Shown here piece by piece: positions 5,886 to 31,000 of a stretch of DNA of 40,158 nucleotides; positions within the stretch are counted from its first letter, which is position 1; the number at the start of each line of letters is the position of its first letter. Under the pieces are notes generated by a model, which did no database searches, was not told the origin of the DNA, and saw only the letters and a list, made by a program, of their open reading frames with translations. Position numbers and translations under genes: made by a program. Source of the stretch: a virus; IMG/VR virus record IMGVR_UViG_3300037324_000047, positions 1 to 40,158 of that record; one strand, written 5' to 3'.

Positions 5886-5933
5886 TGATTAATTGATATA
5901 GACAAATATATACTTTTTAAGTATATGATAAAA
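5886..5933 (-). promoter_or_regulatory. Palindromic Bacteroidetes-type promoter P1 with leader motif
   Basis: On the minus strand, TTTTA is followed after 18 bases by the -7 box TATATTTG (5910-5903). Between them lies an inverted repeat, ATATACTT-N3-AAGTATAT (8-bp arms, 5908-5926). A degenerate copy of the early leader motif follows (5898-5886). The 18-base spacing equals that of the copies at 30010, 30605 and 30970. Confidence 0.8.
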
Positions 5934-6047
5934 GCATTTTTATATATTTTTTTTGTAGACAAGTTAATTTTGTTAAATCTTTTGCCTATGCCATTTTCTT
6001 ATTTAAAACATACCAATACATAGCTAATACGTTTGCTGTTTGCTAGG
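5903..6047 (-). repeat. Intergenic segmental duplication, copy A
   Basis: About 145 bases align with copy B at 30970-31115 in the same orientation, with a few small gaps. The match covers the promoter, an AT-rich middle (sharing TTAATTTTGT and AAATCTTTTGCC) and a stretch ending GTTTGCTGTTTGCTA. In copy B the last part encodes the C-terminus of the spanin-like protein (RGIANSK). Copy A translates to RGLANSK behind a stop codon, so it carries a dead fragment of that gene. Confidence 0.75.
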
Positions 6048-6061
6048 CCTCTGTTTTAACC

Positions 6062-6089
6062 AAAAAAAACCGCCCTAATCTAGAACGGT
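6062..6089 (-). terminator. Rho-independent terminator
   Basis: The minus strand forms a 9-bp stem (ACCGTTCTA with TAGGGCGGT, two G-U pairs) and a three-base loop, then eight T. It closes the four-gene accessory cassette at 7343-6114, immediately before repeat copy A. Confidence 0.85.
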
Positions 6090-6113
6090 CTTTGTACGAT
6101 TCAACTAACCTAA

Positions 6114-6428
6114 TTATGGCAATAATACTTTTATAATGACTTCTGCCTGCTCTGGAGTCTTCATAAAAGCTTTAATGTATTTTACTATTCCCTTGGATCC
6201 TCTTTTAATAAAAGATCGCTTCATTCTTCGATAGTGATTTGCCTCCCTGTATATCGGGCTTTTCATATAATACACTTTTTTAGGGTCTACTTCTTTTTCT
6301 TCGACTTTGTTTGTCCCTGCCAAAATCAGATCCTCTCCAGATATTTCTATCATTTCTAATGATCCATATAAACTAGTCGGCAGGATCTTAGCTATGGCCC
6401 TAATCTTCTTTTGTTCTAGACTGTTCAT
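6114..6428 (-). CDS. Hypothetical protein, last gene of the accessory cassette
   Basis: A 104-residue basic protein starting MNSLEQKKIRAIAKILPTSL, with a Lys/Arg-rich centre (YRRMKRSFIKRGSKG) that could bind nucleic acid. No family is recognised. It overlaps the upstream membrane protein gene in an ATGA and is followed within 25 bases by a strong terminator, so it is the final cistron of a four-gene unit. Confidence 0.6.
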   Translation of the reverse strand: MNSLEQKKIRAIAKILPTSLYGSLEMIEISGEDLILAGTNKVEEKEVDPKKVYYMKSPIYREANHYRRMKRSFIKRGSKGIVKYIKAFMKTPEQAEVIIKVLLP

Positions 6429-6610
6429 TTGTCATTTAATATATTGTACACGGCCCATGTTGATAGTGTTGCAAATACTGCAATACTTGACCAAGTCCAT
6501 CTAAGTAGACCCCATTCTAGATTGAGAAAAGCAAACACTAAAAATAAAATCATGTACGCTACTAAACATCTAAAGACATTGAGCACGTTTCTTTTTGTTT
6601 CAAATTTCAT
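6425..6610 (-). CDS. Small membrane protein with two transmembrane segments
   Basis: A 61-residue protein with two hydrophobic stretches at about 13-30 (FRCLVAYMILFLVFAFL) and 38-56 (WTWSSIAVFATLSTWAVYN) and a positively charged N-terminus. It should sit in the inner membrane. It overlaps both neighbours in ATGA junctions. It is far from the lysis genes, so a holin role is unlikely; superinfection exclusion is one possibility, but nothing in the sequence proves it. Confidence 0.6.
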   Translation of the reverse strand: MKFETKRNVLNVFRCLVAYMILFLVFAFLNLEWGLLRWTWSSIAVFATLSTWAVYNILNDK

Positions 6611-7143
6611 GGCAAATATTTTTCAGGGTTTTTATGATATGTGCTTTTCTTTATTTTCAGACTAATTGATTTCTCTATTGGCTCGCCCTTATAAATGCAA
6701 AGGAATGTTTCTCGTAATATTCCAGTTTTAAATCCCTCCTTTTTTAGCCCTCCTGCAATTCTCCAAGCATCATTTCTTAATCCACTCTTGTCGAATCCTT
6801 CGACTATTAGAATGCCATTGTCCATGAGTATTTCGTAAAATCTTTTTACTCTTTCCTCTAAATTTGATTCGTCCCATTCTCTTAGCAGGATAACTGCATA
6901 AGCTTGTTTATTTTCAACTGCCCAAAGAAGTAAAAAGTCTTCAATAGAAACATGCCATACATAACTTGCAGACTTTTCAGGAAGTGGAAGCATTTTTTCT
7001 GGGTCAAAAATAATCTCTGTATTTCCTTTGATCATACGGCAGATTTTGCCGTCTCCTCCAACTTCCAAATAATCTTTTCTGTCCCACGCTCTCAATGTCG
7101 TGTTGATAAAGTTCCAGATCCTCCAATAGCTTTTTTTTGTCAT
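6607..7143 (-). CDS. Methyltransferase-like fragment or fold (uncertain)
   Basis: A 178-residue protein with a central stretch resembling the second half of a class I Rossmann methyltransferase: AYAVILLREWDESNLEERVK, then FYEILMDNGILIVEGF at about 110-125. The glycine-rich SAM-binding loop expected near the N-terminus is not visible. It may be a truncated or degenerate methyltransferase, or an unrelated alpha/beta protein. It is coupled to both neighbours by ATGA overlaps, inside a cassette bounded by terminators at 7354-7384 and 6062-6089. Confidence 0.4.
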   Translation of the reverse strand: MTKKSYWRIWNFINTTLRAWDRKDYLEVGGDGKICRMIKGNTEIIFDPEKMLPLPEKSASYVWHVSIEDFLLLWAVENKQAYAVILLREWDESNLEERVKRFYEILMDNGILIVEGFDKSGLRNDAWRIAGGLKKEGFKTGILRETFLCIYKGEPIEKSISLKIKKSTYHKNPEKYLP

Positions 7144-7343
7144 ATCTTTTTAATTAACTGATCTCTAAAATAAAGCTCTGATCTTTTTAGCGTACTAGGT
7201 TTTAACTGTAAACGTACACTGTTAAAATTGACCTCTGCTTCTTTCTGTGTTACGGCATATCCTTTTCCAATATCAAAATTGCCATCTTTCTTTTCAAATA
7301 CTATCCTATAATTATATACAGGTCTATAATTTTTAGCTCCCAT
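7140..7343 (-). CDS. Small hypothetical protein, first gene of accessory cassette
   Basis: A 67-residue basic protein starting MGAKNYRPVYNYRIVFEKKD. A TTG at 7349 extends it by two codons, but the ATG at 7343 is preferred. The start lies only about 10 bases after the T-run of the tail tube terminator, leaving no room for a separate promoter, so translation depends on read-through. It overlaps the next gene in an ATGA. No family is recognised. Confidence 0.55.
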   Translation of the reverse strand: MGAKNYRPVYNYRIVFEKKDGNFDIGKGYAVTQKEAEVNFNSVRLQLKPSTLKRSELYFRDQLIKKI

Positions 7344-7353
7344 ACTCAAAGAT

Positions 7354-7384
7354 AAAAAAAAAGGGGCTTCGTTTTTGAAGCCCC
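7354..7384 (-). terminator. Strong terminator after the tail tube gene
   Basis: A perfect 8-bp stem (GGGGCTTC with GAAGCCCC) with a six-base loop is followed on the minus strand by nine T. It starts about 20 bases after the tail tube stop. It probably lowers expression of the accessory and tail assembly genes relative to the capsid and tube genes. Confidence 0.93.
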
Positions 7385-7406
7385 CTAAATTATTTACTCC
7401 ATCTGT

Positions 7407-8324
7407 TTATGGAATATTAACCTTTACCGGTATTGACTCATAGCCACTTACTCCAGCGGTGTCTAATGCTTCTGGATCAACAAGTCCAATAAAGTAACTT
7501 TTTGCAGCGCTTGAAACAGTTACAGTAAATGCCATAAGACCTGGGTTTGCAACCACGGCAGACACTGTTAGCACCAAGCCATCGACATCAGTTGCTTTCC
7601 ACAACGCAGGGGCTGACAACTCTCCGCTAAGCTCTGTAAATAGATTTTTTCTGTCACAACCTGAAAGAACGCGAACATTTGTAATAGGCGCATTCAATGG
7701 ATCCAATACAACAAGCGCAAGATTTTGAAGCCCCTTAAATGAACTCATAACCAAGCCCATTGCAGACAAATCAACAAAAGCAATGTCATCATTTGCAGGC
7801 TTTGCCTTGAATGATAATCTGATATTGTACACTGTGCTTGCACTTCCATCATTAACTTTCCAAGGCGAAGCATAATACATTGTCAAAGGTATTGCTTGCA
7901 TTGACTCCCCTACTGTAGTGCCGAATAACACGCCATTAGCATCAACAAAGAAAATTCCTTTTTTTGTGCTATTGAATTTCCTCAAAGATTTTAAAAGGCA
8001 TAGGCCTCCATCGACAAACCGCAAAGTCCAATCGTATTCGCCCTCTCTACTTACGGCCTTTCCACCATATCCAAAGCTTTCAATAGTTGGATCCTCACTA
8101 TTATCAGTTATGGCCACAAAGTCATTGACTGGGTACCATCTTTCTGAGGCATCGGCCTCGTTTATTTTTGTTTGCAGGTAGGCTCCAAAGTCCGATAAAT
8201 CAGCTTCTAGAACAGTCGCTCCGATTGGGGCGATAATTATTGCAACCACATTTTTTGGATCTAATGTACAGTCTCCAAAGCCAGTGTTTGCACCACCTGC
8301 CAAACAGATTATTTTGTTTAGCAT
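7407..8324 (-). CDS. Probable major tail tube protein
   Basis: A 305-residue soluble protein starting MLNKIICLAGGANTGFGDCT, with many Gly, Ala and Val residues and beta-rich predicted character. The C-terminal 100 residues (from about PITNVRVLSGC) look like an added immunoglobulin-like decoration domain. It is the last gene before a strong terminator and follows the head-tail connectors, the usual place for the abundant tube subunit. The start overlaps the preceding gene by seven bases. The assignment rests on order, size and composition rather than on a recognised signature. Confidence 0.65.
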   Translation of the reverse strand: MLNKIICLAGGANTGFGDCTLDPKNVVAIIIAPIGATVLEADLSDFGAYLQTKINEADASERWYPVNDFVAITDNSEDPTIESFGYGGKAVSREGEYDWTLRFVDGGLCLLKSLRKFNSTKKGIFFVDANGVLFGTTVGESMQAIPLTMYYASPWKVNDGSASTVYNIRLSFKAKPANDDIAFVDLSAMGLVMSSFKGLQNLALVVLDPLNAPITNVRVLSGCDRKNLFTELSGELSAPALWKATDVDGLVLTVSAVVANPGLMAFTVTVSSAAKSYFIGLVDPEALDTAGVSGYESIPVKVNIP

Positions 8325-8863
8325 GCTTTTATGATTTTAAGTTTTAGATTTTTTATTTCAATAACATCTAGGTAATCATTAAAAATGTTACCCTCATTTC
8401 CGTACAGTCCAGATCTCCCCCAATACAACCTGTCCCATTTTTGCCTTTGCAACCTATCAACTGAGTACACCTGAAACGATTTATCTGCTACTATTTGCCT
8501 TAAAAACTCCTCGTAAATAGGGTACAGAAACGGCACAAAATTATATTCATACCTCTCACTTGCAATGTATTCTCTCTTAGTTCCTTTTGCTATAATGAAA
8601 TGCAATGTAGCTTCTGTCTCAATACCTACATTGTTTGCTGTAGATTCTTCTGGAAAGTCTTGGAATAGGGCAATCAGCGGATACTTGTTAAACCTAGCTG
8701 ACTGCCCTTTATCCTTTTGCTTTAACCTGTTAATTATCTCCAAGGGGTGACCATGCATGTATTGAACAGTACCGGCACTGGATAATATATCTGGTCTCTT
8801 TTCCATCAATACTAAATTTATCCTTTCCACAACCTCCCTAAAAATATTAACAACTGGCTTCAT
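8318..8863 (-). CDS. Putative head-tail joining / tail completion protein
   Basis: A 181-residue protein starting MKPVVNIFREVVERINLVLM and containing YPLIALFQDFPEES at about 82-95. Position between the connector gene and the probable tail tube fits a neck, head-closure or tail terminator protein. It overlaps the upstream gene in an ATGA and the tube gene by seven bases. No named domain is seen. Confidence 0.5.
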   Translation of the reverse strand: MKPVVNIFREVVERINLVLMEKRPDILSSAGTVQYMHGHPLEIINRLKQKDKGQSARFNKYPLIALFQDFPEESTANNVGIETEATLHFIIAKGTKREYIASERYEYNFVPFLYPIYEEFLRQIVADKSFQVYSVDRLQRQKWDRLYWGRSGLYGNEGNIFNDYLDVIEIKNLKLKIIKAC

Positions 8864-9363
8864 AAATTGAATGAATTAATGACACTGAAATTTTTACCTG
8901 CCCTCTGTGAATAGTTTCTCATTAACAGATCCAACGGATCCAGCATTTCAATCATATCATTCCATGCTTTTACGCATCTGTCATCTGGACTAACCATTCT
9001 GGCGTTCTCTGCTATTCCAAAAACTTCACCAACTCCCTGTTGGGAAGTGATCATGTCTTGAGCGAAATAATAGAAAACATAATTTGCAATAGGGCTAAAT
9101 TTGTCAATATTCTTTAATCCAACCCAATCATAAGCTTTGCCAGAATAACTGAATAGCGCTCCGTTCAGGATCTTGGCTATCTCTGGATCAGTAGGACTTA
9201 AATTTTCTGTGTTGATTTCATTCATCAACTCAAGGCCAAAGTAGTTAAGTAAGAATCGTTTTTCATACTTCTTAATAAAGAAGTTTACATTCTCCTGCAC
9301 CTCTGGTTGTCCTAACTGAGCAATGTTGATTTCTCCAAAGAAATATCCCGTGTCAATAATCAT
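8860..9363 (-). CDS. Putative head-tail connector (adaptor) protein
   Basis: A 167-residue acidic, largely helical protein starting MIIDTGYFFGEINIAQLGQP. Helical proteins of this size just after the capsid gene are usually the gp6-like adaptors that dock under the portal. It starts directly after the stop of the 76-residue gene and overlaps the next gene in an ATGA. The family was not proven from the sequence; the call combines size, predicted fold and position. Confidence 0.5.
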   Translation of the reverse strand: MIIDTGYFFGEINIAQLGQPEVQENVNFFIKKYEKRFLLNYFGLELMNEINTENLSPTDPEIAKILNGALFSYSGKAYDWVGLKNIDKFSPIANYVFYYFAQDMITSQQGVGEVFGIAENARMVSPDDRCVKAWNDMIEMLDPLDLLMRNYSQRAGKNFSVINSFNL

Positions 9364-9594
9364 TTATTTCGCTTTTTGAGCCTTTTCTTGAGCTTCGATA
9401 GCCCCCTCTCTTTTTGCTTTGACTTTGGATATAAGTGCCTCCATAACCTCTTTTGCAGGCTTTGTAGTCATCTTTGCTCCTGTGTCCTTTAATTTCTCTG
9501 CAACTTTTACATTCATTGCATGAACCCCTTTTTTGTGATATCTAGTATCCTCGCTTAGGGTTACAATTACTATCTGTTCAATTTTACCTGCCAT
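9364..9594 (-). CDS. Small Lys-rich hypothetical protein after capsid
   Basis: A 76-residue protein starting MAGKIEQIVIVTLSEDTRYH and ending in a Lys/Ala-rich helix (REGAIEAQEKAQKAK). It lies between the capsid and connector genes. It could be a capsid-associated or head-completion protein, but no family is recognised. A possible promoter lies upstream at 9616-9623. Confidence 0.55.
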   Translation of the reverse strand: MAGKIEQIVIVTLSEDTRYHKKGVHAMNVKVAEKLKDTGAKMTTKPAKEVMEALISKVKAKREGAIEAQEKAQKAK

Positions 9595-9615
9595 TTTTTA
9601 ATTGGTAATTGGTTT

Positions 9616-9623
9616 CAAATTTA
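9616..9623 (-). promoter_or_regulatory. Possible -7 promoter box downstream of the capsid gene
   Basis: The minus strand reads TAAATTTG, matching the Bacteroidetes -7 consensus TAnnTTTG, 22 bases before the ATG of the 76-residue gene. No convincing -33 box is present. An imperfect dyad with 10-base arms (9633-9657) overlaps the capsid stop codon just upstream. Confidence 0.35.
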
Positions 9624-9652
9624 TTTATACTATTACTTTAACCTAAATCAGA

Positions 9653-10981: not shown

Positions 10982-10982
10982 T

Positions 10983-11813: not shown

Positions 11814-11831
11814 TTAATTACCTCCCCTTTT

Positions 11832-13124: not shown

Positions 13125-13157
13125 GTTGATAGCATTTTTTTTACTAATGTAAAGCTT

Positions 13158-15035: not shown

Positions 15036-15794
15036 TTAAACTCCTTTAATTGGCACTTTGATTACTGGATTAATGTCAAATATAGTTTCTTTTTTTTTGC
15101 CTTTTTTCTTTCCTTTATCAAGCCGGACTATCTTACTGCCCCACTTGCGTTGGAACAACTTCATCTGCTCGCGCCCCCTTTCGATTGTTCGATTATCTGA
15201 GCATCCTCCAATATTTCCATGGTCTTTTTTTATCATGTGAATGTAATTGAACCTTAATGCTCCTCTGTATTTATTAAAATGTTGCAGGCAATAATCGTAA
15301 TCCTCTTTTAAGGGCAAATTTTCGTCAAACAGAATTGGGTTTGGGATTATTCCCATCAAAGACCCGCTGATATAGTTTGTAAAGCTTAATGGCGTATACT
15401 CTCTGTAGGATCCTTTATCTCCAATGATGTTTAACCCAAATAGTTTGTACCCTGCTTCTTTAGCCATAACAAAAGCCATCTCGAAGAACTCTAATATGTC
15501 TTCTGCTTTCATTGATTTTAAAAACGGGCTTTTATCCTTAAAATCCCACAGTTTAAAATCCTCAATATCATCGTCAATCATAATACCGCCATTTTTTAAT
15601 AAGACCTGAGCAATATGGTTTCTTACCCTTGATAGGTTCCCTCTCAGATCATTTGGTATCACTCTTATTTTGTGACCTTCTGCCCTATACTCATGCTCTT
15701 CAAATTCATGCACAACGTAAATGACACTTGGCAAAATTTTATGGGTCTTGACCCCTTTTGCTCTTTTGTAGCTTGGTGCGTAGATTTCATTCAT
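15036..15794 (-). CDS. TAGT-like GT-A glycosyltransferase, second copy
   Basis: A 252-residue protein related to the next gene upstream. It starts MNEIYAPSYKRAKGVKTHKI, has SRVRNHIAQVLL and then the metal-binding acidic triad IDDD at 73-76, and a later acidic pair in LKEDYDYCL. This pattern matches small GT-A glycosyltransferases of the TET-associated (TAGT) type found in phages, which are proposed to put sugars on modified pyrimidines in DNA. The sequence shows the fold and metal motif, not the acceptor. Both copies end with the same tail, PIKGV. It overlaps the upstream copy in an ATGA. Confidence 0.65.
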   Translation of the reverse strand: MNEIYAPSYKRAKGVKTHKILPSVIYVVHEFEEHEYRAEGHKIRVIPNDLRGNLSRVRNHIAQVLLKNGGIMIDDDIEDFKLWDFKDKSPFLKSMKAEDILEFFEMAFVMAKEAGYKLFGLNIIGDKGSYREYTPLSFTNYISGSLMGIIPNPILFDENLPLKEDYDYCLQHFNKYRGALRFNYIHMIKKDHGNIGGCSDNRTIERGREQMKLFQRKWGSKIVRLDKGKKKGKKKETIFDINPVIKVPIKGV

Positions 15795-16507
15795 ACTCCT
15801 TTAATTGGTATTCTAAATTCAAACCTTGTCTTGTTCCAGATCATTATTTGTCTGCCCCATTTGTTGTTTATCTGTTTTGCGAATTTCTTTTTGTCCTGAA
15901 CACTGTATTTTATTACTGATTCCTTTCCTCCATCCTCTCCATTAAAAACGCAAACAAATCTGTTTTCTCTGATCATAAATCTATTTTTATTCATTTTAGA
16001 CGCCCAAAACTCAACATCTTCTGTGATTCTAAAATTCTCGTCATACTTAATGCCATCGAGAACATTAATTAATGCATTGCCAAAAACAGGCTTGGTAAAA
16101 GAAAATGGCTGAAAGTCTTTTAACTTTAAATTGTCTGATGAATAATCAAACCCTCCAAGCCCGGCCTGCATATCCTCTGCCATAATTTGTACCCATTCCA
16201 TTGCTTCCAAAGCTTCATCGCCTGTCAGCTTTTTTTGATGCTTTTTTTCTTTGATGCAGATAAGATCATCATCACATATCCAAGCCCAACCGTCCGGCTC
16301 CCTCTCTTTAATTAACTCCAAAATAGCATTTCTTTTTTTTGCAACAGATCCATCTTTTTTATTAGGTATACTCACTACATTTTTGCCATATCTTTTTTTG
16401 TAATTAAGAAACTGACTTTCCGGCACTACAATAGTTCCACTTTCTAAATATTCAAAGGTCTTGACTGATTCCCACCTATTAAATGAAGGTATATAAATGC
16501 TATTCAT
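15791..16507 (-). CDS. TAGT-like GT-A glycosyltransferase, first copy
   Basis: A 238-residue protein. It starts MNSIYIPSFNRWESVKTFEY, has KKRNAILELI and the metal-binding CDDD at 78-81, a second acidic motif ITEDVEFW, and the C-terminus RIPIKGV shared with its tandem paralogue. The likely reaction is sugar transfer from a nucleotide sugar. TAGT family proteins are associated in other phages with base hydroxylases and ParB-like proteins, and here a ParB-domain gene overlaps it by eight bases. No hydroxylase is visible in this genome, so the acceptor is open: DNA, RNA or protein. Confidence 0.65.
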   Translation of the reverse strand: MNSIYIPSFNRWESVKTFEYLESGTIVVPESQFLNYKKRYGKNVVSIPNKKDGSVAKKRNAILELIKEREPDGWAWICDDDLICIKEKKHQKKLTGDEALEAMEWVQIMAEDMQAGLGGFDYSSDNLKLKDFQPFSFTKPVFGNALINVLDGIKYDENFRITEDVEFWASKMNKNRFMIRENRFVCVFNGEDGGKESVIKYSVQDKKKFAKQINNKWGRQIMIWNKTRFEFRIPIKGV

Positions 16508-17786: not shown

Positions 17787-19187
17787 TTATAATTTTTCAA
17801 CTTCTTTCTTTGCCCACTGCTTGAATCCTTCAAACTTTTTCAGGATCTCAGCGCTCAACTCGTTTTCCACTGGAGCATTTGTGATATTCATTGAATCAAT
17901 CCAAGATTGAAACTGCTTTTTTACTGGAGCCTTTGCTAATTTCTCTGCGTCTTTTGCATCCTTAACAGCCTTTTCCTTTCGGTCATTCTCAATCCCTTGC
18001 AACCTGACTCTCTCTGCCCGCTCTTCGCCTTCTTTTGTGGCCTGTAAGCGTAATTCCTGAGTCCTTTTATCCGCTCTTTCCTGAGCATCTGTCAAGCCCT
18101 TCTGAAATTCAATATCAGTAGAGTTAATTAACTTTTCGTAATCATCAACAAAGAAAAGAATTGAAGATAATTTTAAGCCTCTTCTCTCTCTTTTTGCCTT
18201 AACATCTTTTTCCTCTTTATCCTTATTAACACAGGATGCCATAACCTTTGCAAATCCAACCACATCAAGAAGCAAGACCTTTTCAATATTGTCAATAAAC
18301 CTTAAATATGGTAGGGCTAAAGCTTTTTTTCTTTCTCTCTCTTTCTGATCTCTTTCTGCATCAATAAGCTTAAATAGAAAGTTATCAAAATTAGAATTTG
18401 TCATCTCTCTAAAGTCGTAACTGGTAATTGGATCCGATAAAAGATTGACATATTTTGCAACCTGTACAAATCTTTCTTTTCCGATATCGTTGATCTTTTT
18501 GGTTGCTATTGCCCCTTCAATTAATCCCAAATATTCATCTGCAGAAATTTCTGTAAGTTCTGTAATCCCGTATCTTTTCTTTAAATATGGACTTAGCTCC
18601 ATTAATTCAGCAAACCTCTCTTGTCCTACAAGGATCTTTTTTGCCTCTTCTTTTTGTTTGATTTCAGCATCTTTTTCGGCCTGAATCAATTCTAAGCTTT
18701 GTTGTATCTTTTTCTCCAGATAAGATTCCCATACATCTTCTTGCATTGATCCAAAATTAAGATCGTTATGCTCAAGGTCTATGTATGGTTTTATCTGGCC
18801 TAATCTCTTTTTGTTAAGCTTTTCAACCTTTTCTGCCAGCTTTATTGCACTGTAATTCTCCACTCCTAAAAGCTTTTCCTCCAGACCCTGTCCAGCAAAA
18901 AGCTGAGCGTTTTTCCATCCATCGATGTATTTGCCGGCTTTTATGTAGAACTCCTTTTGGTCTTTATGAATTGATGCTGTGCCAGTCCTGGCTTTTACTA
19001 GCTTTAGTCGAACCTCTCTAGCCTTTTCCTCGCTTTCCTTAGTCCCCTTTTTCATCTCGAAAACCTTATTGGCCTGCTCCTCCAATGCATCCATGAGCTT
19101 TAACATTGGCTCAAATTGCTGACGGATCTGCTTGGCTTTTACCTCTTCGATTCCAAATTTTTCTGCACTTACGTTTTCAACGTTCAT
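17787..19187 (-). CDS. Coiled-coil protein with about five imperfect PY-type repeats
   Basis: A 466-residue charged, cytoplasmic protein. Residues 10-125 are coiled coil. Five imperfect units follow near 128-164, 190-230, 239-280, 288-320 and 337-375; each is roughly R-x(4-6)-PY or an equivalent, then an acidic turn, then a Phe/Tyr-Leu helix (for example RLGQIKPYIDLEH and ERFAELMELSPYLKKRYG). The C-terminus is Lys/Glu-rich. I know such repeats from Bacteroidetes phage recombination regions but not a function. It has its own palindromic promoter at 19219. Confidence 0.6.
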   Translation of the reverse strand: MNVENVSAEKFGIEEVKAKQIRQQFEPMLKLMDALEEQANKVFEMKKGTKESEEKAREVRLKLVKARTGTASIHKDQKEFYIKAGKYIDGWKNAQLFAGQGLEEKLLGVENYSAIKLAEKVEKLNKKRLGQIKPYIDLEHNDLNFGSMQEDVWESYLEKKIQQSLELIQAEKDAEIKQKEEAKKILVGQERFAELMELSPYLKKRYGITELTEISADEYLGLIEGAIATKKINDIGKERFVQVAKYVNLLSDPITSYDFREMTNSNFDNFLFKLIDAERDQKERERKKALALPYLRFIDNIEKVLLLDVVGFAKVMASCVNKDKEEKDVKAKRERRGLKLSSILFFVDDYEKLINSTDIEFQKGLTDAQERADKRTQELRLQATKEGEERAERVRLQGIENDRKEKAVKDAKDAEKLAKAPVKKQFQSWIDSMNITNAPVENELSAEILKKFEGFKQWAKKEVEKL

Positions 19188-19218
19188 TTTTCAAATATTT
19201 ATCTGTTTAACTTATTTT

Positions 19219-19249
19219 CAAATATATACTTTTTATGTATATTAATCAA
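19219..19249 (-). promoter_or_regulatory. Palindromic Bacteroidetes-type promoter P2
   Basis: The minus strand carries TATATTTG (19226-19219) with the inverted repeat ATATAC-N7-GTATAT (19224-19242) just upstream and a TTG at 19249-19247 as possible -33 element (20-base spacing). It is 32 bases before the start of the 466-residue gene, and lies just beyond, and partly inside, the end of the preceding 61-residue gene. Confidence 0.75.
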
Positions 19250-23611: not shown

Positions 23612-23622
23612 ATTTTTTAAAT

Positions 23623-23701: not shown

Positions 23702-23757
23702 GGTGGATAAATTGCAATGCTTAAATATACTTTTAATTTTTAAATTTAGAACTGCTT

Positions 23758-23886: not shown

Positions 23887-23902
23887 CTAAGGAGGCATTG
23901 GG

Positions 23903-24814: not shown

Positions 24815-24861
24815 TTTTATTTCTCTTTTTCCTCGTGGATACCTCATTTGTTAATCAACCG

Positions 24862-24955: not shown

Positions 24956-25206
24956 AGTGGGTTACAACTATTGCAGTTTATACCCATTGAAGGTGCTTCT
25001 ATAATATCATCGCTTCCGCATACATCGCACAACGTACCCTTCGGCACAATAACACTATCTATAGGTAATGTTTGCCCTTGCTTTAGTGCTTTAATTAACA
25101 GTTCTTGCACTTCGTCTGTGTTCCAAGTAAGTTTACATACATCTTCCCACTCAGAGCTTGACGTATGGTCTAGTATTATATCTAATGCTTTGTCTTCTAT
25201 ATTCAT
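24952..25206 (-). CDS. Small zinc-ribbon protein of the inserted cassette
   Basis: An 84-residue acidic protein starting MNIEDKALDIILDHTSSSEW. The C-terminal third has CDVCGSDDI and then NCNSCNPL, two CxxC knuckles that should bind one zinc. The stop adjoins the attC-like palindrome. Its base composition and style differ from the neighbouring phage genes, fitting recent capture together with the PP-loop gene. Function is unknown; it may be a partner of that ATPase. Confidence 0.6.
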   Translation of the reverse strand: MNIEDKALDIILDHTSSSEWEDVCKLTWNTDEVQELLIKALKQGQTLPIDSVIVPKGTLCDVCGSDDIIEAPSMGINCNSCNPL

Positions 25207-25245
25207 AATTCAGTTTTATTTATTCGGGCAAAAACTACCCATAGA

Positions 25246-25257
25246 TTTAACGTTAAA
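25246..25257. other. 12-bp perfect palindrome TTTAACGTTAAA
   Basis: This palindrome lies between the YopX-like gene stop and the cassette gene. It contains GTTAAA(T), which matches the integron core GTTRRRY on the minus strand, so it may mark the upstream edge of the inserted cassette. It may equally be chance in AT-rich DNA. Confidence 0.3.
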
Positions 25258-25264
25258 ATCAATT

Positions 25265-25597
25265 CTATAAAACAATCAACGGCCTAAATATATCCTCTAA
25301 ATAATACGGAAAATTCAAACTACTATAGGCTAGCATTTTTCCGTTTACAAATTTGACATTGTAAAAGTACCCGTGTCCAGATCTTAATTTGTCCCCTTCA
25401 TAAATGAAATTAACCGATAAGTCCAGTATTCCACTACAAAGCCCTACCGTTTCCGATAGGACTTTGTAAGAAGCAAAAACTTCTCCATTCTCTTCTTGTG
25501 CGATATAATCTGAATCTTTAGACTGCAACAAACTCCCAAAAATCCAATCGCTTTTAAGTGAGACTTTTCCTCTGTAAATCCTTGTCTGTAATTCCAA
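25265..25597 (-). CDS. YopX family protein
   Basis: A 110-residue protein. The N-terminus RIYRGKVSLKSDWIFGSLLQ matches the usual YopX opening (FRGK...W.YGSLL), and the later SYKVLSETVGLCSGILDLSV followed by NFIYEGDKL matches the conserved G..D..G..IYEGD block. YopX proteins are common in phages of Gram-positive and Bacteroidetes hosts; their role is unknown. The start overlaps the upstream gene by 44 bases, but the conserved N-terminus supports it. Confidence 0.78.
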   Translation of the reverse strand: MELQTRIYRGKVSLKSDWIFGSLLQSKDSDYIAQEENGEVFASYKVLSETVGLCSGILDLSVNFIYEGDKLRSGHGYFYNVKFVNGKMLAYSSLNFPYYLEDIFRPLIVL

Positions 25598-26261
25598 TTC
25601 CTATGTGGTTTGTTATGATCTCTAGGTTTTCTCTAGAATGATTTGGCACCAAGCTGACAACTGGAAAACGCTTTTTTGAGGCGGGCTTATTTGATTTGTG
25701 CATAGTGATATTTAAGTCAAAAATAATTCCTCTAATAAATCCACGTTGCTCAATAACAGCATCAAAAACTGAAATTATTTCAGGTATTGTGCTTTTCTCT
25801 CCACTGGTGCTAAACTCCCAATGTCCAATTATTCCACCAATTTTTGGCAATAAAAACCTCAAGGTCAATCTAGACCTCCACTCATTTTTGTGCTTCTCAG
25901 CTAATTTTTCCAGCATTTCTGGGTGATCTTGAAGCGAATAATCATTGTACCCTTCGCTTTTTTGGTCATAAATCTTAAAGTCCAGGCCATCGCCATGAGC
26001 CACCAAAGCCCCTGCGCTATCTCTTAATTCCAACCTTTCATCGCAAACTAGTTCTGGTCGATCTTCCATAAATATCACTTGCAGGGTACTTGGCTTCTCT
26101 CCGTATTCTTCTTTAAAGTATTTCTCATACTTTCCTGTTGCTAGAAAATAATCTAGTGCCATAGGGTAACCTTTCTCCGTCTTTTTTCCGCATTTTATTT
26201 TTCCGATTAATGGAAATTGCAACCTTGGTGCCTGTGGCGGTCTTTTTATTCTACCTGTCAT
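25554..26261 (-). CDS. gp3-like protein (recombination directionality factor-like fold)
   Basis: A 235-residue protein from the ATG at 26261, which overlaps the exonuclease stop in an ATGA; an upstream ATG at 26303 would lie inside that gene. It begins MTGRIKRPPQAPRLQFPLIG and has KGYPMALDYFLAT then EYGEKPSTLQVIFMEDRPEL, resembling the phage gp3/RDF-like family (GRP..LDYF, YG..P). In phiC31 gp3 controls integrase direction. No integrase is visible here, so the family name may not describe its job; many lytic phages carry it among nucleases. Confidence 0.55.
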   Translation of the reverse strand: MTGRIKRPPQAPRLQFPLIGKIKCGKKTEKGYPMALDYFLATGKYEKYFKEEYGEKPSTLQVIFMEDRPELVCDERLELRDSAGALVAHGDGLDFKIYDQKSEGYNDYSLQDHPEMLEKLAEKHKNEWRSRLTLRFLLPKIGGIIGHWEFSTSGEKSTIPEIISVFDAVIEQRGFIRGIIFDLNITMHKSNKPASKKRFPVVSLVPNHSRENLEIITNHIGIGITDKDLQRKSLT

Positions 26262-26893
26262 ATTAGCCCCCTTTTTAAAAGCTCGAAATAACATTCTGCG
26301 CAACCTTCTGTATCAGAAATAGCTTGGTGCGCTCCTTCAAACTCTTTTTCAAAAAGGATCCTGTACAACTCTTCTAATTTTGGAAACTTAAAACCGCTCC
26401 CTCCTTTTGGAAAAGGTAATCTGCAATAGTCGATTGTACTTTTCATAGTACAGAATTTAGGCTTTCTGGGCAAAAGAAGTCCTGCCATATTTAATTCTGA
26501 TCCTAAAACTAAACTGTCAAAATCCATATTGTGAGCCACAATCAAATCAGCATCTTTGTGATGAAATTTGAAAAAATTTAGAGCATCAATAATTGGAACA
26601 CCTCTTGTATGGCTTTCCTCGTTAGTGAATCCGTTGTCTGTCCAAAATTTAGATCTCTTTTCAGCCTCTACATCAGAAATTCCCTTGTTAAGCCAATAAT
26701 CTAAATCTGGTATTTTCCAGCCATCTGGTTTAATAAGAAACTCCTTGCTCTTTATTTTCTGGACTCCTACTGTTTCACTCTCAAGATAAACAGAAACAGC
26801 TAACTGAATAATCCTTGGCTGTATTACAACTCCTGCTTCGTTGCGCTTTGGGAACCCGGTTGTCTCCGTATCGAAAAACAATATCCTACGCAT
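26258..26893 (-). CDS. DEDDh 3'-5' exonuclease (DnaQ-like)
   Basis: A 211-residue nuclease with the complete DEDDh set: FDTETTG at 7-13 (D8, E10), AHNMDFD at 120-126 (D124 or D126), and GAHQAISDTEGCAE with H189 and D194. It should remove 3' nucleotides from DNA or RNA. No polymerase is encoded nearby, so it may act with the host polymerase or in host DNA breakdown. It overlaps the upstream nuclease gene by eight bases and the gp3-like gene by four. Confidence 0.93.
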   Translation of the reverse strand: MRRILFFDTETTGFPKRNEAGVVIQPRIIQLAVSVYLESETVGVQKIKSKEFLIKPDGWKIPDLDYWLNKGISDVEAEKRSKFWTDNGFTNEESHTRGVPIIDALNFFKFHHKDADLIVAHNMDFDSLVLGSELNMAGLLLPRKPKFCTMKSTIDYCRLPFPKGGSGFKFPKLEELYRILFEKEFEGAHQAISDTEGCAECYFELLKRGLI

Positions 26894-27908
26894 CTTGTCC
26901 CCCCTTCTTTAATTTTACCAACTCTGAAAGGTTTATGTTTACAAAGTTGCTATCTAAGCAACCATCTGCGAGGTTTATTTCTCCAGAACATACCAATACA
27001 CTGCTTTTCTTATTCCTGCGATCTATGGCTATCAAGCCTAACAAATGAGGCATTTTATCCACTACATTCTTGTGGGATTGCTCAGTAAAATTATAACTTG
27101 GTAAGGATCCTCTCCATGCTTTAGGCGACCAATTGTAAGTTTGCTCAATCAATATATCTGGGTAATGCTTATTCCAGATTAATTTGTAGGCCTCAAGCTG
27201 AAAGATATGCGAATCGTAAAACCCCTTTCTCCCACTCTTAAAATCTACTAAAGCATTTATTTCAATCTCTCTTTTTCCTTCTTTTGGACTCCCTTTTTTT
27301 TCTCCAGACTTGTAAACCTCTCCGAAAAAACCTTTTTCCTCAACGGTTATTTTACATGGCAGATCCAAGGCCCCTGCTAGTCCTGTTTCTTCATCAGCCA
27401 AAATAATTTCGATTGCCAAAGGCTTTACCTTATAATCAATACACCACTGAGCAAATGCAAGAATGTCTTTTTTTAACTCCTCCTCATGGTAGATAAATTT
27501 TTCGGGCAATTGGTTTTCGTCAATATACTGCTTAAGCTTTCCTCTGATTGCATCAAGATTGTAAATCCCTTTCTGAATTAACAGGGTTGAACACTCAATG
27601 TGCATAAATGTGCCGTAATCAGCCCTTTCATTTTTATAAAGCTCAGCCTCCTCAAATCCCATGTCAGCAATCCACTTAATCAAGTGCGGACTGGTGGGCA
27701 ATACCCTTCCTAGTGCCGTTGTAACTGACTCATAAAAGAACGGTTCCCCTGCTTCATCAAAAGTGTAATAAACCCTTTCGCTTGTTCCTCCAACCCGGTA
27801 CACAGTCCTTGGCTGAATCTTCAATGCATCTTCATTGAAAAAAAGCGCTTTTAGCTCTTCGACTGTTATGCCGTTTTCTAGCTCAAAATATTTTTCTAGC
27901 TCATTCAT
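26886..27908 (-). CDS. PD-(D/E)XK nuclease, RecB/Cas4-like
   Basis: A 340-residue protein with the RecB-type nuclease order: H103 in DYGTFMHIECS, E167 in LAIEIILADEETG, D182 in LAGALDLP, D222 and K224 in LVDFKSGRKGFY, and Q237 in HIFQLEAYK. It probably degrades DNA ends as a phage recombination exonuclease. No separate annealing protein is recognised beside it, though one of the unknown genes could serve. It lies directly after the helix-turn-helix gene. Confidence 0.9.
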   Translation of the reverse strand: MNELEKYFELENGITVEELKALFFNEDALKIQPRTVYRVGGTSERVYYTFDEAGEPFFYESVTTALGRVLPTSPHLIKWIADMGFEEAELYKNERADYGTFMHIECSTLLIQKGIYNLDAIRGKLKQYIDENQLPEKFIYHEEELKKDILAFAQWCIDYKVKPLAIEIILADEETGLAGALDLPCKITVEEKGFFGEVYKSGEKKGSPKEGKREIEINALVDFKSGRKGFYDSHIFQLEAYKLIWNKHYPDILIEQTYNWSPKAWRGSLPSYNFTEQSHKNVVDKMPHLLGLIAIDRRNKKSSVLVCSGEINLADGCLDSNFVNINLSELVKLKKGGQDA

Positions 27909-27919
27909 GTTTCTCTTTT

Positions 27920-28147
27920 TTAGTCTTGTCCAAATAAATAATTTGTATCACATATTAACCTGTCGCAGAGCATGCTTATGTGATCAATTTTTATGCTCCT
28001 TGTCTCCCCTGAACATAATCTCATAATGTTCATCCTTTGAGTTTTAATGCTAGACTCTGGCCACAACTCCTTCGCAAGATCAATCATTTTAATCTGCTCC
28101 TCGTACTTACTATTGTGCATTTCAATAGCCTCTTTAATTTTTAACAC
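27920..28147 (-). CDS. Helix-turn-helix protein, Cro/C1 type
   Basis: A 75-residue protein with a four- to five-helix XRE-like layout: MIDLAKELWPESSIKTQRMN, then SIKIDHISMLCDRLICDTNY. Its size suits a Cro-like regulator. It is the only clear regulator in the genome and so the best candidate to bind the shared operator ATATAC-N7-GTATAT. It lies after the terminator at 28168-28190 and has no obvious promoter, so it may depend on read-through. Confidence 0.7.
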   Translation of the reverse strand: MLKIKEAIEMHNSKYEEQIKMIDLAKELWPESSIKTQRMNIMRLCSGETRSIKIDHISMLCDRLICDTNYLFGQD

Positions 28148-28167
28148 TTTTTGTTTTTTAGGTAAAT

Positions 28168-28190
28168 AAAAAAAAGGGGGTATTTCCCCC
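28168..28190 (-). terminator. Terminator after the zinc-ribbon gene
   Basis: GGGGG and CCCCC pair around a five-base loop, followed on the minus strand by eight T. It overlaps the end of the 144-residue gene and precedes the helix-turn-helix gene. Confidence 0.85.
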
Positions 28191-28193
28191 TAT

Positions 28194-28628
28194 TTAATTC
28201 CTTGGATTATAGTAGTCTTCTTTTTGCATCTCCAGACCTTGAACACCTCCACAATTTTTGCACTTTCCTAGAGCCTCGCCATTGTTCCCAAAATCAAAAA
28301 GCTCTTCAATACTGGATCCACAATTTGAACAGTTGCCTGTTCCCCTAAAATAAAGGCCTGAAAAAGCAAGCTCTAAATCCCTTGTCCATCTTGAAAATAT
28401 TTTTAAACAAACGGCACCAACTGTCCAACCCTCGGCCTCAATAATTTCTTTTACCGGTCTAAGCCAAAAATCTTGATCTAGCTCAATCCCCTCTTTATTG
28501 CATATCTCTTCAAATCTTCTTTCGATTCTGGAGGCTAATCCCTTCCAGCTAGACCTTGGAAAAAACTGCAATAAATCTTTCCACTCCTTTGAGTTTCTGT
28601 CTATTTCTATTCCGTTGTAAATTTGCAT
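28194..28628 (-). CDS. Hypothetical protein with C-terminal zinc ribbon
   Basis: A 144-residue protein from the ATG at 28628. A longer frame to 28715 runs through the promoter and leader, so it is rejected. Residues 1-100 are helical and basic (SSWKGLASRIERRFEEICNK). The C-terminus has NCSNCGSSIEELFDFGNNGE and then KCKNCGG, a CxxC pair that should bind zinc. It has promoter P3 and the shared leader upstream, so it is an early gene. Function unknown. Confidence 0.65.
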   Translation of the reverse strand: MQIYNGIEIDRNSKEWKDLLQFFPRSSWKGLASRIERRFEEICNKEGIELDQDFWLRPVKEIIEAEGWTVGAVCLKIFSRWTRDLELAFSGLYFRGTGNCSNCGSSIEELFDFGNNGEALGKCKNCGGVQGLEMQKEDYYNPRN

Positions 28629-28642
28629 TTTTTGATTGTTTA

Positions 28643-28689
28643 TGATTAACTGATCTTCAAATATATACTTTTTATATAAACGCAACAAA
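28643..28689 (-). promoter_or_regulatory. Bacteroidetes-type promoter P3 with degenerate operator
   Basis: TATATTTG (28665-28658) is preceded by ATATAC at 28663-28668, but the second half-site is changed to ATAAAC, so the dyad is broken. TTG at 28685-28683 (17-base spacing) or TTTG at 28689-28686 could be -33. The leader motif follows (28655-28643), with a 27-base run nearly identical to that of the DUF932 gene. Confidence 0.72.
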
Positions 28690-28726
28690 TAATATGTAGA
28701 TATAATTTGGGCCATTTTAAGCTATC

Positions 28727-28738
28727 TCTAAGCTTAGA
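28727..28738. other. 12-bp perfect palindrome TCTAAGCTTAGA
   Basis: It lies about 65 bases upstream of promoter P3, in a 220-base gap with no gene. It might be an additional operator; no second copy was noticed. Confidence 0.3.
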
Positions 28739-28769
28739 TCATCTCTAGATATATGAACACTCCAGAAAC

Positions 28770-28803
28770 AAAAAAAAAGGCTAGGGTAATCACCCCCTAG
28801 CCT
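28770..28803 (-). terminator. Terminator after the DUF932 gene
   Basis: The minus strand pairs AGGCTAGGG with CCCTAGCCT (9 bp) around an eight-base loop, followed by nine A on the plus strand (T-run on the transcript). Confidence 0.92.
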
Positions 28804-28848
28804 ATCAGTCAATCAATGCCCCTGTGTGTGGGACAAAGATCAAATGTA

Positions 28849-29976
28849 TTAAACTTTCTTTAACAATGCCACTCTATTCATAAGCTTTCCGGCTATTTCC
28901 TGAATTTCTCTGCCTCTTGCCGATTCAGCATCTCTGCCAACTGCTGTCACACCATTAACCAACTTCCAAAGGCTAGGCTCTCCAGACACTCCGTTTTCGG
29001 TTTTTCCATCCATCAAAACCTTGCCCACTTTTTCCACTTCGGCTTTGATCAGCCCTGTCTTGGCAAGTAACTTTATTTCCTTGTCTATGTCCACTTCCAT
29101 ATAGCTTGCGTCCTGAATAAGCTCCATCTCTTTTTGGATCATTTCAGCCTTGAAAATTTGGCCTGTCAGATCCTTTAAAAGAGAAGCTTGAAGGTTTGTG
29201 TCATGCCGGTATGTCTCCTCTGATAGTCTTAAATTATCGGGCAATTTTGCGCCTAAATGAATGGTTCTTAGCACTGACTCTCCTACCATTCCATTCAAAC
29301 ATACTCCTTGCATTGTGAACGTCCTTAATTCAAGCGCCCCATCTCCATAATCAGATGTCGCTAACCTTGCGCCATAACTCATGACTACCTGGCCATTCCT
29401 TGGCGTGTCAAAGACTAGAGGCTGAGGCATGAGCATTTCTAGAAAGAACTTTGTGTCTGTCATTAGGCCATCTGCCATAACGGATCCATGCTCATAACCT
29501 GCTTTTACAAAATCTTGCACTAATTTTTCGCTGTGCAATCTTCGGTATTGGTCTGAAAGAAAACCGCGAACCTCTCCACCTACTGAGCGAACAAGCACCT
29601 TGCTTCTCTTGGTATATCCAATATGCTCATTTAAGATCCTAGCACAAAGATCACGCTCCCACTCTACTCCTCTTGCTAACTGCTCCAGATACTTTGCAGG
29701 AACGCTCATTTTTTCTCCTAATTGACGAACTGCATTTGAATGAATCGAATACTCTTCAACCTCTCCTGCAATCTGGATCTCCATTTTTACTTTGCCATTT
29801 GCAGTAAAATTAATGGCAGCATTTCTGTTGTCATTATTGGTTCCTACTGGAGTAATAAAATCTTTACTCATTTTTCCTTCTGCTACTAATCTTTGAAAGG
29901 CCATCTCAGCATTAGGCTGATGACTCTTAATTCGTCTTTCTAGATTTGCGATTGTTACTTCTGTGAACGTGTTCAT
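28849..29976 (-). CDS. DUF932 family phage protein
   Basis: A 375-residue protein from the ATG at 29976; the frame extends to 30012 through the leader. It contains the DUF932 hallmarks near 80-230: SIHSNAVRQLGEKMSVPAKY, then a GFLSDQYRRLHSEKL block and a YGARLATSDYGDGALELRTF segment followed by TMQGVCLNGMV. DUF932 proteins are frequent in phages and plasmids; the function is unsettled. It is the longest early gene, has its own promoter P4 and its own terminator, so it is probably expressed strongly and alone. Confidence 0.75.
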   Translation of the reverse strand: MNTFTEVTIANLERRIKSHQPNAEMAFQRLVAEGKMSKDFITPVGTNNDNRNAAINFTANGKVKMEIQIAGEVEEYSIHSNAVRQLGEKMSVPAKYLEQLARGVEWERDLCARILNEHIGYTKRSKVLVRSVGGEVRGFLSDQYRRLHSEKLVQDFVKAGYEHGSVMADGLMTDTKFFLEMLMPQPLVFDTPRNGQVVMSYGARLATSDYGDGALELRTFTMQGVCLNGMVGESVLRTIHLGAKLPDNLRLSEETYRHDTNLQASLLKDLTGQIFKAEMIQKEMELIQDASYMEVDIDKEIKLLAKTGLIKAEVEKVGKVLMDGKTENGVSGEPSLWKLVNGVTAVGRDAESARGREIQEIAGKLMNRVALLKKV

Positions 29977-29993
29977 CTTTTTTTGATTGTTTA

Positions 29994-30040
29994 TGATTAA
30001 CTGATTGAACAAATATATACTGCTAATGTATATAATAAAA
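29994..30040 (-). promoter_or_regulatory. Palindromic Bacteroidetes-type promoter P4 with leader motif
   Basis: TATATTTG (30017-30010) and TTTTA (30040-30036) are 18 bases apart. The inverted repeat ATATAC-N7-GTATAT (30015-30033) keeps its arms although the seven-base centre (TGCTAAT) differs from the other copies, which argues that the dyad itself is selected. The leader motif lies at 30006-29994. Confidence 0.82.
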
Positions 30041-30065
30041 GCATTTATCTACTTTTTTTTAATAT

Positions 30066-30087
30066 AAAAAAAGGGGCTACTCGCCCC
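30066..30087 (-). terminator. Terminator overlapping a stop codon
   Basis: GGGGC and GCCCC pair around a five-base loop, followed by seven T on the minus strand. The TAG stop of the 82-residue gene (30079-30077) lies partly in the loop, so translation ends inside the hairpin. Confidence 0.8.
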
Positions 30088-30325
30088 CTGTGAATTTCTG
30101 CCAAGATTTGCCAACTCGTTCCATCTTTTCAATAAAGATCTCTCTGGGTATTTCTCTTATAATCGAATTGCTGTTTAAAAAACTTTCTTTCTTATAAATA
30201 GAAACTTCCGCTCTGTCCTCCCATATCCAAGGTGCCAGCACCTCTTCTCCTTTTATGCTTACAATCCACTCGTGACTTTTTGGGCCATCTTTGACTCCAT
30301 AAAAGCCATCCTTAATATTTTCCAT
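30077..30325 (-). CDS. Small hypothetical early protein
   Basis: An 82-residue protein starting MENIKDGFYGVKDGPKSHEW, with many aromatic residues and a charged C-terminal helix. No family is recognised. It has the leader motif AATCAGTCAATCA (30353-30341) 16 bases before its start but no promoter of its own; it should be co-transcribed with the 73-residue gene, whose stop overlaps the motif. Confidence 0.6.
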   Translation of the reverse strand: MENIKDGFYGVKDGPKSHEWIVSIKGEEVLAPWIWEDRAEVSIYKKESFLNSNSIIREIPREIFIEKMERVGKSWQKFTGGE

Positions 30326-30351
30326 GGTTTTTTTTTATTGTGATTGACTGA

Positions 30352-30573
30352 TTAAAATGAATAGAAACGAACTGTTAAGCCTCTTCTCAACTTGCAAATT
30401 GTGATGTCTTTTCCTTCTGCAAATGCTCTTTCAACCAACTTAGCAGAAAGATCTAGGCCACATAAGGCAACAAGGCCTTTGACTCCAACAAGCTTACTCA
30501 TTGAGGATCCGTTAAAATTTTTACCGTTTACTTTGATTTTGAAGTTTGAATTGATTTCGCTAACTGATCTCAT
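30352..30573 (-). CDS. Small hypothetical early protein, basic
   Basis: A 73-residue basic protein starting MRSVSEINSNFKIKVNGKNF and ending RRGLTVRFYSF. A hydrophobic centre (GVKGLVALCGLDLSAKLVER) suggests a folded alpha/beta domain. It has promoter P5 and the leader motif just upstream. Unknown function; a host-takeover role is typical for genes at this place. Confidence 0.62.
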   Translation of the reverse strand: MRSVSEINSNFKIKVNGKNFNGSSMSKLVGVKGLVALCGLDLSAKLVERAFAEGKDITICKLRRGLTVRFYSF

Positions 30574-30588
30574 GGCCTTTTCCTTTTT

Positions 30589-30635
30589 TGATTAACTGAT
30601 TGAACAAATATATACTTTTTATGTATATGATAAAA
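30589..30635 (-). promoter_or_regulatory. Palindromic Bacteroidetes-type promoter P5 with leader motif
   Basis: TATATTTG (30612-30605), TTTTA (30635-30631), 18 bases between, the inverted repeat ATATAC-N7-GTATAT at 30610-30628, and the leader motif at 30601-30589. This is the clearest copy of the set. Confidence 0.85.
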
Positions 30636-30655
30636 GCACTAATTAAAAAAAGATC

Positions 30656-30676
30656 AAAAAAAAAGGGCAAATGCCC
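30656..30676 (-). terminator. Terminator after the first early gene
   Basis: GGGC and GCCC pair around a four-base loop with a nine-T run after it on the minus strand. The stem is short but the T-run is long. Confidence 0.65.
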
Positions 30677-30697
30677 CCTCTTTTTAATCAACAACTT

Positions 30698-30937
30698 TTA
30701 TAATTGGTTAATTAGCTTTGAGTGCTGTTTTTGATCTAAATGGTAAAGGATAAAATTTCCGCATTCAATAACTTTACCTCTTCGGTTGTAATTGCAGGTT
30801 ACTTCTGCGGTATCTCCAACGACTTTTATTTTTTCTATTTGATAAATGTCATTATACCTATTATCAAAATATTTTGCACCTGCCTCTATTTTGCTTGCAT
30901 ATCTGCCTTGATTTTCAAAAGTCTCAATACTTTCCAT
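30698..30937 (-). CDS. Small hypothetical early protein
   Basis: A 79-residue protein starting MESIETFENQGRYASKIEAG, with beta-rich character (IEKIKVVGDTAEVTCNYNRR). It may be a small SH3- or Tudor-like barrel, which I cannot confirm. It has promoter P6 and the leader motif, and its own terminator, so it forms a single-gene unit after the lysis genes. Confidence 0.6.
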   Translation of the reverse strand: MESIETFENQGRYASKIEAGAKYFDNRYNDIYQIEKIKVVGDTAEVTCNYNRRGKVIECGNFILYHLDQKQHSKLINQL

Positions 30938-30953
30938 TTTTGATATGTTTAAA

Positions 30954-31000
30954 TGATTAACTGATTGAACAAATATATACTTTAAAAGTATCCGTCAAAA
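30954..31000 (-). promoter_or_regulatory. Palindromic Bacteroidetes-type promoter P6 with leader motif
   Basis: TATATTTG (30977-30970) and a TTTTG -33 box (31000-30996) are 18 bases apart, the best consensus match in the set. Here the dyad is ATACTTT-A-AAAGTAT (30977-30991), different in sequence but at nearly the same place. The leader motif is at 30966-30954. Confidence 0.82.

Follow-up and report, generated by a model that had tools for sequence, protein, structure and literature searches.

Copies of one putative promoter-operator-leader module in a likely phage of Bacteroidota-type bacteria

Introduction

Does a virus that carries the same promoter several times, far apart on its genome, use these copies to control a set of genes together? 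The question is raised by IMG/VR virus record IMGVR_UViG_3300037324_000047, a sequence of 40,158 bp that we analyzed at full length (the window). A first-pass annotation of this DNA proposed a phage-wide regulon of six promoters with an inverted repeat (dyad) between their -33 and -7 boxes, and named a 75-residue helix-turn-helix (HTH) protein as the regulator. Protein similarities to phages of Flavobacterium, Bacteroides, Croceibacter, Parabacteroides, and Elizabethkingia, and promoters with a -7 box of the Bacteroidota form, make the virus look like a phage of Bacteroidota-type bacteria. On balance, we favor a reading in which the six sites are copies of one promoter-operator-leader module under joint phage repression.

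Results

Six promoter copies share a -7 box, and five carry a dyad

Copies of the -7 box are present at all six positions where they had been placed, named here by the first coordinate of the box (Table 1). All are on the minus strand and each reads GTATATATTTG, an 11-mer that occurs six times in the whole record and nowhere outside these sites. The box itself, TATATTTG (n = 6), is preceded by GTA in every copy and lies 29 to 33 nt upstream of an ATG. In Flavobacterium johnsoniae, the promoter consensus is TTTG at -33 and TAHHTTTG at -7, with transcription starting 4 to 5 nt after the -7 box (PMC6847099). The six boxes all fit this -7 form upstream of a gene start, and, as proposed, the sites look like coordinated Bacteroidota-type promoters. 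The -33 element varies between copies (GCTTTT, CTTG, TTTGTTG), with TTG or TTTG at 19219, 28658, and 30970 and TTTT at 30605, 30010, and 5903.

The dyad ATAC-N7-GTAT was found five times in the window, always at a TATATTTG promoter and at a fixed distance from its box, where 0.36 copies were expected and none of 100 shuffles reached five; the copy at 28658 has TTAT-N7-GTAT instead. When the spacers were shuffled with the right arm fixed, the mean was 0.06 sites and none of 20,000 runs reached three or more, a result that overstates independence because the promoter copies are paralogous. The dyad is placed between the boxes so as to occlude RNA polymerase, as the first-pass annotation had it, except that the first three bases of the -7 box also belong to the right arm. 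At 30970, where the dyad was said to have been rebuilt with other bases, the inner arms ATAC and GTAT are in fact unchanged, the outer AT has gone, and a different center, TTTTAAA, extends the symmetry inward. We rejected an RNA structure as the explanation of the dyad, since transcription is expected to start downstream of it. The promoters at 30970 and 5903 (30938-31060 and 5871-6000) are homologous over ~85 bp, far upstream of the boxes, so that one probably arose as a duplicate of the other.

The term phage-wide proved too strong, since the promoter-like sites at 7354 and 9623 (TAAATTTG) have neither dyad nor common leader and no full dyad stands at the promoter of the HTH operon. A -7 box placed 2 to 5 nt before an ATG, directly after a terminator-like stretch, is seen in the window at 7347-7354 and is conserved across distant relatives, at L071 4022, L121 2972, L130 11511, L138 17175, and L144 4948 (L numbers designate related viral contigs). 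This layout resembles that of a promoter for leaderless mRNA. The idea that every TATATTTG promoter carries the dyad was rejected, as the conserved sites L071 4022, L121 2972, and L130 11511 have neither dyad nor leader.

The dyad arms are conserved in close relatives and absent from distant ones

Orthologous sites were taken from contigs fetched by protein similarity: L123/L131 (12031_000091) and L128, and, for the 5903 site, L019, L071, and L121. The 5903 relatives had first been found by motif search; a protein-based search of this region returned the identical three contigs, all with the dyad, plus one without the cassette, so they are not a biased sample. All six of these close relatives (L123, L128, L131, L019, L071, and L121) retain the dyad, and the earlier observation that the arms are kept as the center changes extends to them: the arms are held and the center drifts. 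With the 28658 group left out, ATAC has 0/28 changes, the center 5/49, and the upstream part 18/98; the difference between ATAC and the center plus upstream part (0/28 versus 23/147) gives a Fisher P value of 0.013, and that between ATAC and the center alone gives 0.10. The left arm at 28658 differs even between the two phages compared. GTA and the -7 box show zero changes across orthologous sites. These comparisons point to genuine but modest selection on the dyad at five sites and decay at the sixth.

More distant relatives (L124, L148, L155, L172, L145, L294, and L295) also carry a local promoter type in several copies, together with an HTH gene near the exonuclease gene, but ATAC-N7-GTAT was not found in these repeated promoters. 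Their promoters share different spacers, often TTTGG followed by TTAAAA; site 7178 of L148 carries AAAAAGTATATATTTG, without ATAC. Loss of the dyad with retention of the -7 box, which the first-pass annotation had named as the pattern that would speak against its proposal, is therefore seen in the distant relatives and not in the close ones. Because the distant relatives keep the -7 box, the multipromoter layout, and an HTH orthologue without the dyad, the dyad is, as judged from sequence, specific to one lineage, and we rejected the view that it is general to phages with this HTH protein. A search of IMG/VR for ATAC-N7-GTATATATTTG returned 116 stretches; of those with box and leader, the clear cases belong to the lineage of the window and the others look like single chance matches.

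A leader sequence marks gene starts with and without a promoter

The first-pass annotation overlooked that each of the six -7 boxes is followed by TCAATCAGTTAATCA or a near copy of it. With up to 2 mismatches allowed, this leader has five copies on the coding strand of the window and none on the other, with 0.15 expected per strand, and all five lie 13 to 17 nt before an ATG; it precedes 5 of the 57 genes, compared to 0.37% of random positions. Plus-strand matches (e.g., at 28801) were set aside, having at least 3 mismatches. In L123, just four of eleven leader copies stand behind a -7 box, and L148 and L134 retain the core CAGTTA without the dyad. Since copies also precede internal genes that have no promoter (Table 1), the leader is a start-associated sequence distinct from the promoter. 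It would form the 5' end of the mRNA, given that the start point is expected 4 to 5 nt after the box.

In L145, L155, L172, L294, and L295, the leader has another form, GA followed by a 5-bp stem with a hexaloop that starts with C, mostly 18 to 21 nt before the start codon. Scanning for this hairpin gave 14 hits on the coding strand, of which one in L146 is doubtful and the remaining 13 are credible, and no hit on the opposite strand. Across 14 aligned copies, all pairs are kept and 4 of the 5 pairs change on both sides, with a covariation score that no shuffle reached. No Rfam family was found in the window, L145, L155, L172, L294, or L295. The hexaloop of L295 is CAGUUA; the loops in L294, L172, L155, and L145 are CGGGUU, CGGGUA, and CGUUUU. 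A link between the distant hairpin and the leader of the window, through this hexamer and its position, is speculative. It is a doubtful but coherent idea that the leader is a phage translation start tag for hosts that lack Shine-Dalgarno (SD) sequences, with CAGUUA unpaired here and in L148 and L134 and presented as a hairpin loop in L295, to be read by part of the ribosome or by an RNA-binding protein of the phage.

The candidate regulator has a predicted Cro/C1-type fold

The AlphaFold model of the 75-residue HTH protein is confident (pLDDT, 93.8), and its best structural neighbors are mostly Cro/C1 (XRE) proteins (Z, 6.6 to 8.6), among them ImmR, P22 c2 (Z, 7.7), CylR2, SinR, and 434 Cro (Z, 6.8). 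Other searches gave less: Foldseek E values were above 0.1, the match to Pfam HTH_26 (E, 0.0036) was below the cutoff, and a PDB sequence search with the HTH profile returned no match. By its predicted structure, the protein has the Cro/C1 (XRE) fold, and no other clear Cro/C1-type regulator was found among the proteins scanned. It is plausible, judging by its family, that this protein binds the dyad as a repressor.

The role assigned to it by the first-pass annotation holds as far as the fold goes; a simple rule that pairs HTH protein with dyad does not, since distant HTH orthologues have dyad-less promoters. Identity to the window protein is 50% in L148 (alignment A4), 42 to 43% in L124, 39% in L145 (the Elizabethkingia phage TCUEAP2), and 28 to 31% in L155 and L172. 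The recognition-helix segment, TQRMNIMRLCSGET, is identical in the window and in L126, both of which have the dyad, in proteins that are 73% identical overall; it is TQRINVSNLIHGKT in L124 and TQRMNISKLAGGKR in L148, both without the dyad. Such tracking of the dyad by the recognition helix is the pattern that a change in binding specificity would leave, but it is a correlation over few lineages.

Small-gene units are exchanged at the leader

Comparison with relatives shows that small-gene units act as plug-in cassettes that are gained, lost, or swapped at the leader. In L123, the counterpart of the 30010 module is split over two leader copies, one matching its promoter side and the other its gene side, with two extra genes (95 and 80 aa) in between; the two matches overlap by 29 bases, which are the leader itself. 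At 19219, L128 has a 55-aa open reading frame (ORF) inserted directly after the leader, with flanks >94% identical, and L131 has an 84-aa gene flanked by two leaders. At 5903, a different gene stands behind the retained promoter and dyad in L071, and the cassette is missing from L133. The target of the 30010 module had been labeled DUF932, for which we found no Pfam or NCBIfam support; its protein matches phrog_1362.

Table 1. Features of the window and leader hairpins of relatives
Feature	Coordinates	Strand	Details
Module 1	30954-30991	-	Dyad ATAC-N7-GTAT 30977-30991; TATATTTG 30970-30977; leader TCAATCAGTTAATCA 30954-30968
Target of module 1	30698-30937		79-aa gene, downstream
Module 2	30589-30628	-	Dyad ATATAC-N7-GTATAT 30610-30628; -7 box 30605-30612; leader 30589-30603
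Target of module 2	30352-30573		phrog_32997 family
Module 3	29994-30033	-	Dyad 30015-30033; -7 box 30010-30017; leader 29994-30008
Target of module 3	28849-29976		phrog_1362; real start probably ATG at 29976
Module 4, dyad lost	28643-28668	-	GTA and -7 box 28658-28665; leader 28643-28657
Target of module 4	28194-28628		Zinc-ribbon-like gene, then HTH gene past a terminator
Module 5	19204-19242	-	Dyad 19224-19242; -7 box 19219-19226; diverged leader 19204-19218
Target of module 5	17787-19187		466-aa gene
Module 6	5886-5926	-	Dyad 5908-5926; -7 box 5903-5910; diverged leader 5886-5900
Target of module 6	5447-5870		Small-gene cassette within tail region
Internal control	7347-7354	-	-7-like box TATCTTTG, 3 nt before ATG; no dyad, no leader
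Leader without promoter	5634-5648	-	1 mismatch; 13 nt before ATG of internal gene, probable start 5620
Leader without promoter	30341-30355	-	2 mismatches; 15 nt before ATG of internal gene 30077-30325
Weak leader	7151-7165	-	4 mismatches, core TCAGTTAAT intact; before gene 6607-7143
Intrinsic terminator	30652-30689	-	Upstream of module 2
Intrinsic terminator	30071-30089	-	Upstream of module 3
Intrinsic terminator	28778-28803	-	Upstream of module 4
Intrinsic terminator	28175-28191	-	Between gene 28194-28628 and HTH gene
HTH protein, candidate repressor	27920-28147	-	75 aa, Cro/C1-type
Hairpins, L145	5502, 5905, 7492, 13890		
Hairpins, L155	5929, 6224		
Hairpins, L172	5459, 5753		
Hairpins, L294	2024, 10633		
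Hairpins, L295	155, 1943, 4120, 10128		

Genome ends and other observations

The record is close to a complete genome, because an almost identical direct repeat of ~150 bp stands at both ends (1-152 and ~40007-40158). The ORF at 39246-40106 runs on across the ends, so its GTG start is an artifact of the point at which the record was cut. Nearly all genes are on the minus strand, and no DNA-close relative was found among INPHARED phages for the first 25 kb of the window.

Outside the modules, 15036-15794 and 15791-16507 form a tandem pair of distantly related genes (~26% identical), the first of which matches a TET-associated glycosyltransferase (PF20691); this match suggests that the phage DNA is modified. 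The gene at 25554-26303 strongly matches a Gp3-like recombination directionality factor (PF18897; E, 3e-30), although no integrase was noticed. The tail-region protein encoded at 33168-35033 has AFNQNIGAWNVSNVT repeats near its C terminus, which we take to resemble BspA/DUF285-type surface repeats.

Discussion

In the model that we favor, each module would consist of a weak -33 element, a spacer holding the operator ATAC-N7-GTAT, the -7 box TATATTTG, a start point 4 to 5 nt later, and a ~30-nt leader that opens with TCAATCAGTTAATCA. The operator half-sites would be 11 bp apart, about one helical turn, with the first -7 bases doubling as operator. Early in infection, the module would be read by the RNA polymerase of the host, carrying the primary sigma factor of Bacteroidota. 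The five full operators would then be bound by a phage repressor, for which a dimer of the Cro/C1-type protein is the most likely candidate; it would cover the -7 box and shut down the five units jointly. The leader would act on the mRNA as a separate element, because it also precedes internal genes without a promoter, and would probably aid initiation in these hosts; Bacteroidota lack SD sequences (PMC6847099). As every unit starts with the same promoter and leader, small genes could be swapped without breaking regulation.

Several results weigh against joint repression. The dyad copies are paralogous and partly homogenized rather than six independent events, and the ortholog test is not significant when 28658 is included (P = 0.19). 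HTH orthologues at 28 to 50% identity co-occur with dyad-less promoters, and the promoter that precedes the HTH operon itself has no full dyad. In addition, promoters of F. johnsoniae normally have AT-rich motifs at -18 and -28 (PMC6847099), and arm conservation could therefore partly reflect promoter strength. In an alternative that we consider somewhat unlikely, the dyad is no operator but spacer DNA of a single strong promoter, with an A-tract near -18, an AT-rich stretch near -28, and GTA before the -7 box; promoter and leader would have spread together, and the symmetry would be an inherited coincidence. Besides the AT-rich motifs and the test with 28658 counted, it would account for the upstream and leader sequence common to the copies, including the ~85 bp shared by 30970 and 5903, and for distant relatives that retain box, A-tract, and leader without the dyad, as at L148 7178. 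However, the C of ATAC lies outside any AT-rich motif and yet is constant at all dyad sites, while the A-tract varies (ATTAGCA, TTTTAAA, ATATAAA, TTAAATA), and at 30970 the symmetry survives a replaced center.

The dyad might also serve a purpose other than repression by the HTH protein. That the repeats are mainly recombination junctions for gene shuffling, with regulation secondary, as in the PeSL elements of T4-type phages, seems to us unlikely: cassette breakpoints within or adjoining the leader at three places, a 5903 promoter kept with different cargo in L071, the absence of the whole cassette from L133, and the terminators that separate several units are all consistent with it, but a pure recombination substrate would not require arms that are held while adjacent bases drift, nor leader copies fixed 13 to 18 nt from an ATG on one strand only. 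We find it improbable that the dyad is an operator for another protein, be it a host regulator, the zinc-ribbon-like protein, or a MerR-style activator acting in the 19- to 20-bp spacer. The presence of HTH orthologues alongside dyad-less promoters would fit such a protein, as would the zinc-ribbon-like gene being first in the 28658 operon and the dyad sitting in the spacer; on the other hand, the proteins scanned yielded no MerR-type domain, the zinc-ribbon matches are far below the cutoff, and the HTH protein is the sole clear Cro/C1-type regulator scanned, with a recognition helix that tracks the dyad.

The closest known architecture is that of cluster K mycobacteriophages, in which a start-associated sequence (SAS) precedes many nonstructural genes and about half of the copies have an extended intergenic element upstream, with an imperfect inverted repeat (ESAS; PMC3203893). 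In Adephagia, the extended element combines its inverted repeat with a SigA-like promoter (PMC11373665), and cluster K subclusters differ in the inverted repeat and share the SAS. Here, too, a short sequence stands near the start codons of many small nonstructural genes in one orientation, and a subset of copies has an upstream promoter and inverted repeat (4 of 11 copies in L123 behind a -7 box; six modules in the window, five with the dyad). The sequences themselves differ: the leader is TCAATCAGTTAATCA and does not match the 13-bp SAS consensus GGGATAGGAGCCC, it lies 13 to 18 nt from the ATG compared to 3 to 9 for SAS, and it is SD-less behind a Bacteroidota -33/-7 promoter, whereas SAS contains an SD sequence and ESAS a SigA-type promoter. 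The dyad spans 15 to 19 bp inside the promoter spacer, compared to 15- to 17-bp repeats in ESAS. We class the module with ESAS/SAS by architecture, in which the parallel is close, with no relation in sequence; the likeness is probably convergent.

Other systems share single traits. PeSL elements (promoter-early stem-loops; Arbiol 2010, Comeau 2014), as described by a paper that cites this work (PMC4503421), likewise place a promoter beside a terminator between small genes and are linked to gene shuffling; the common part here is instead promoter, operator, and leader, with terminators that are not conserved in sequence. Intergenic repeats of halovirus HF2 also act as promoters with a position conserved within the genus, but they are archaeal, and the abstract of that account describes no start-associated element (PMC8707807). 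The fold of the candidate regulator and a palindromic operator between the boxes with half-sites about one turn apart recall P22 c2 and 434 Cro, although Cro/C1 switches cluster their operators, while here a single operator belongs to each scattered promoter and no lysogeny module was identified. In the literature searched, we found no paper describing such modules in Bacteroidota phages.

Little is known about the timing of genes in Bacteroidota phages, and the module offers three things that can each be tested by single changes: its defined operator, the candidate regulator, and the start-associated sequence. The parallel with ESAS/SAS suggests that a promoter-operator combined with a start tag recurs in phages that shuffle small genes. 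If it is true that the leader acts on translation, it would open a way to study the tuning of initiation in a phylum that lacks SD sequences.

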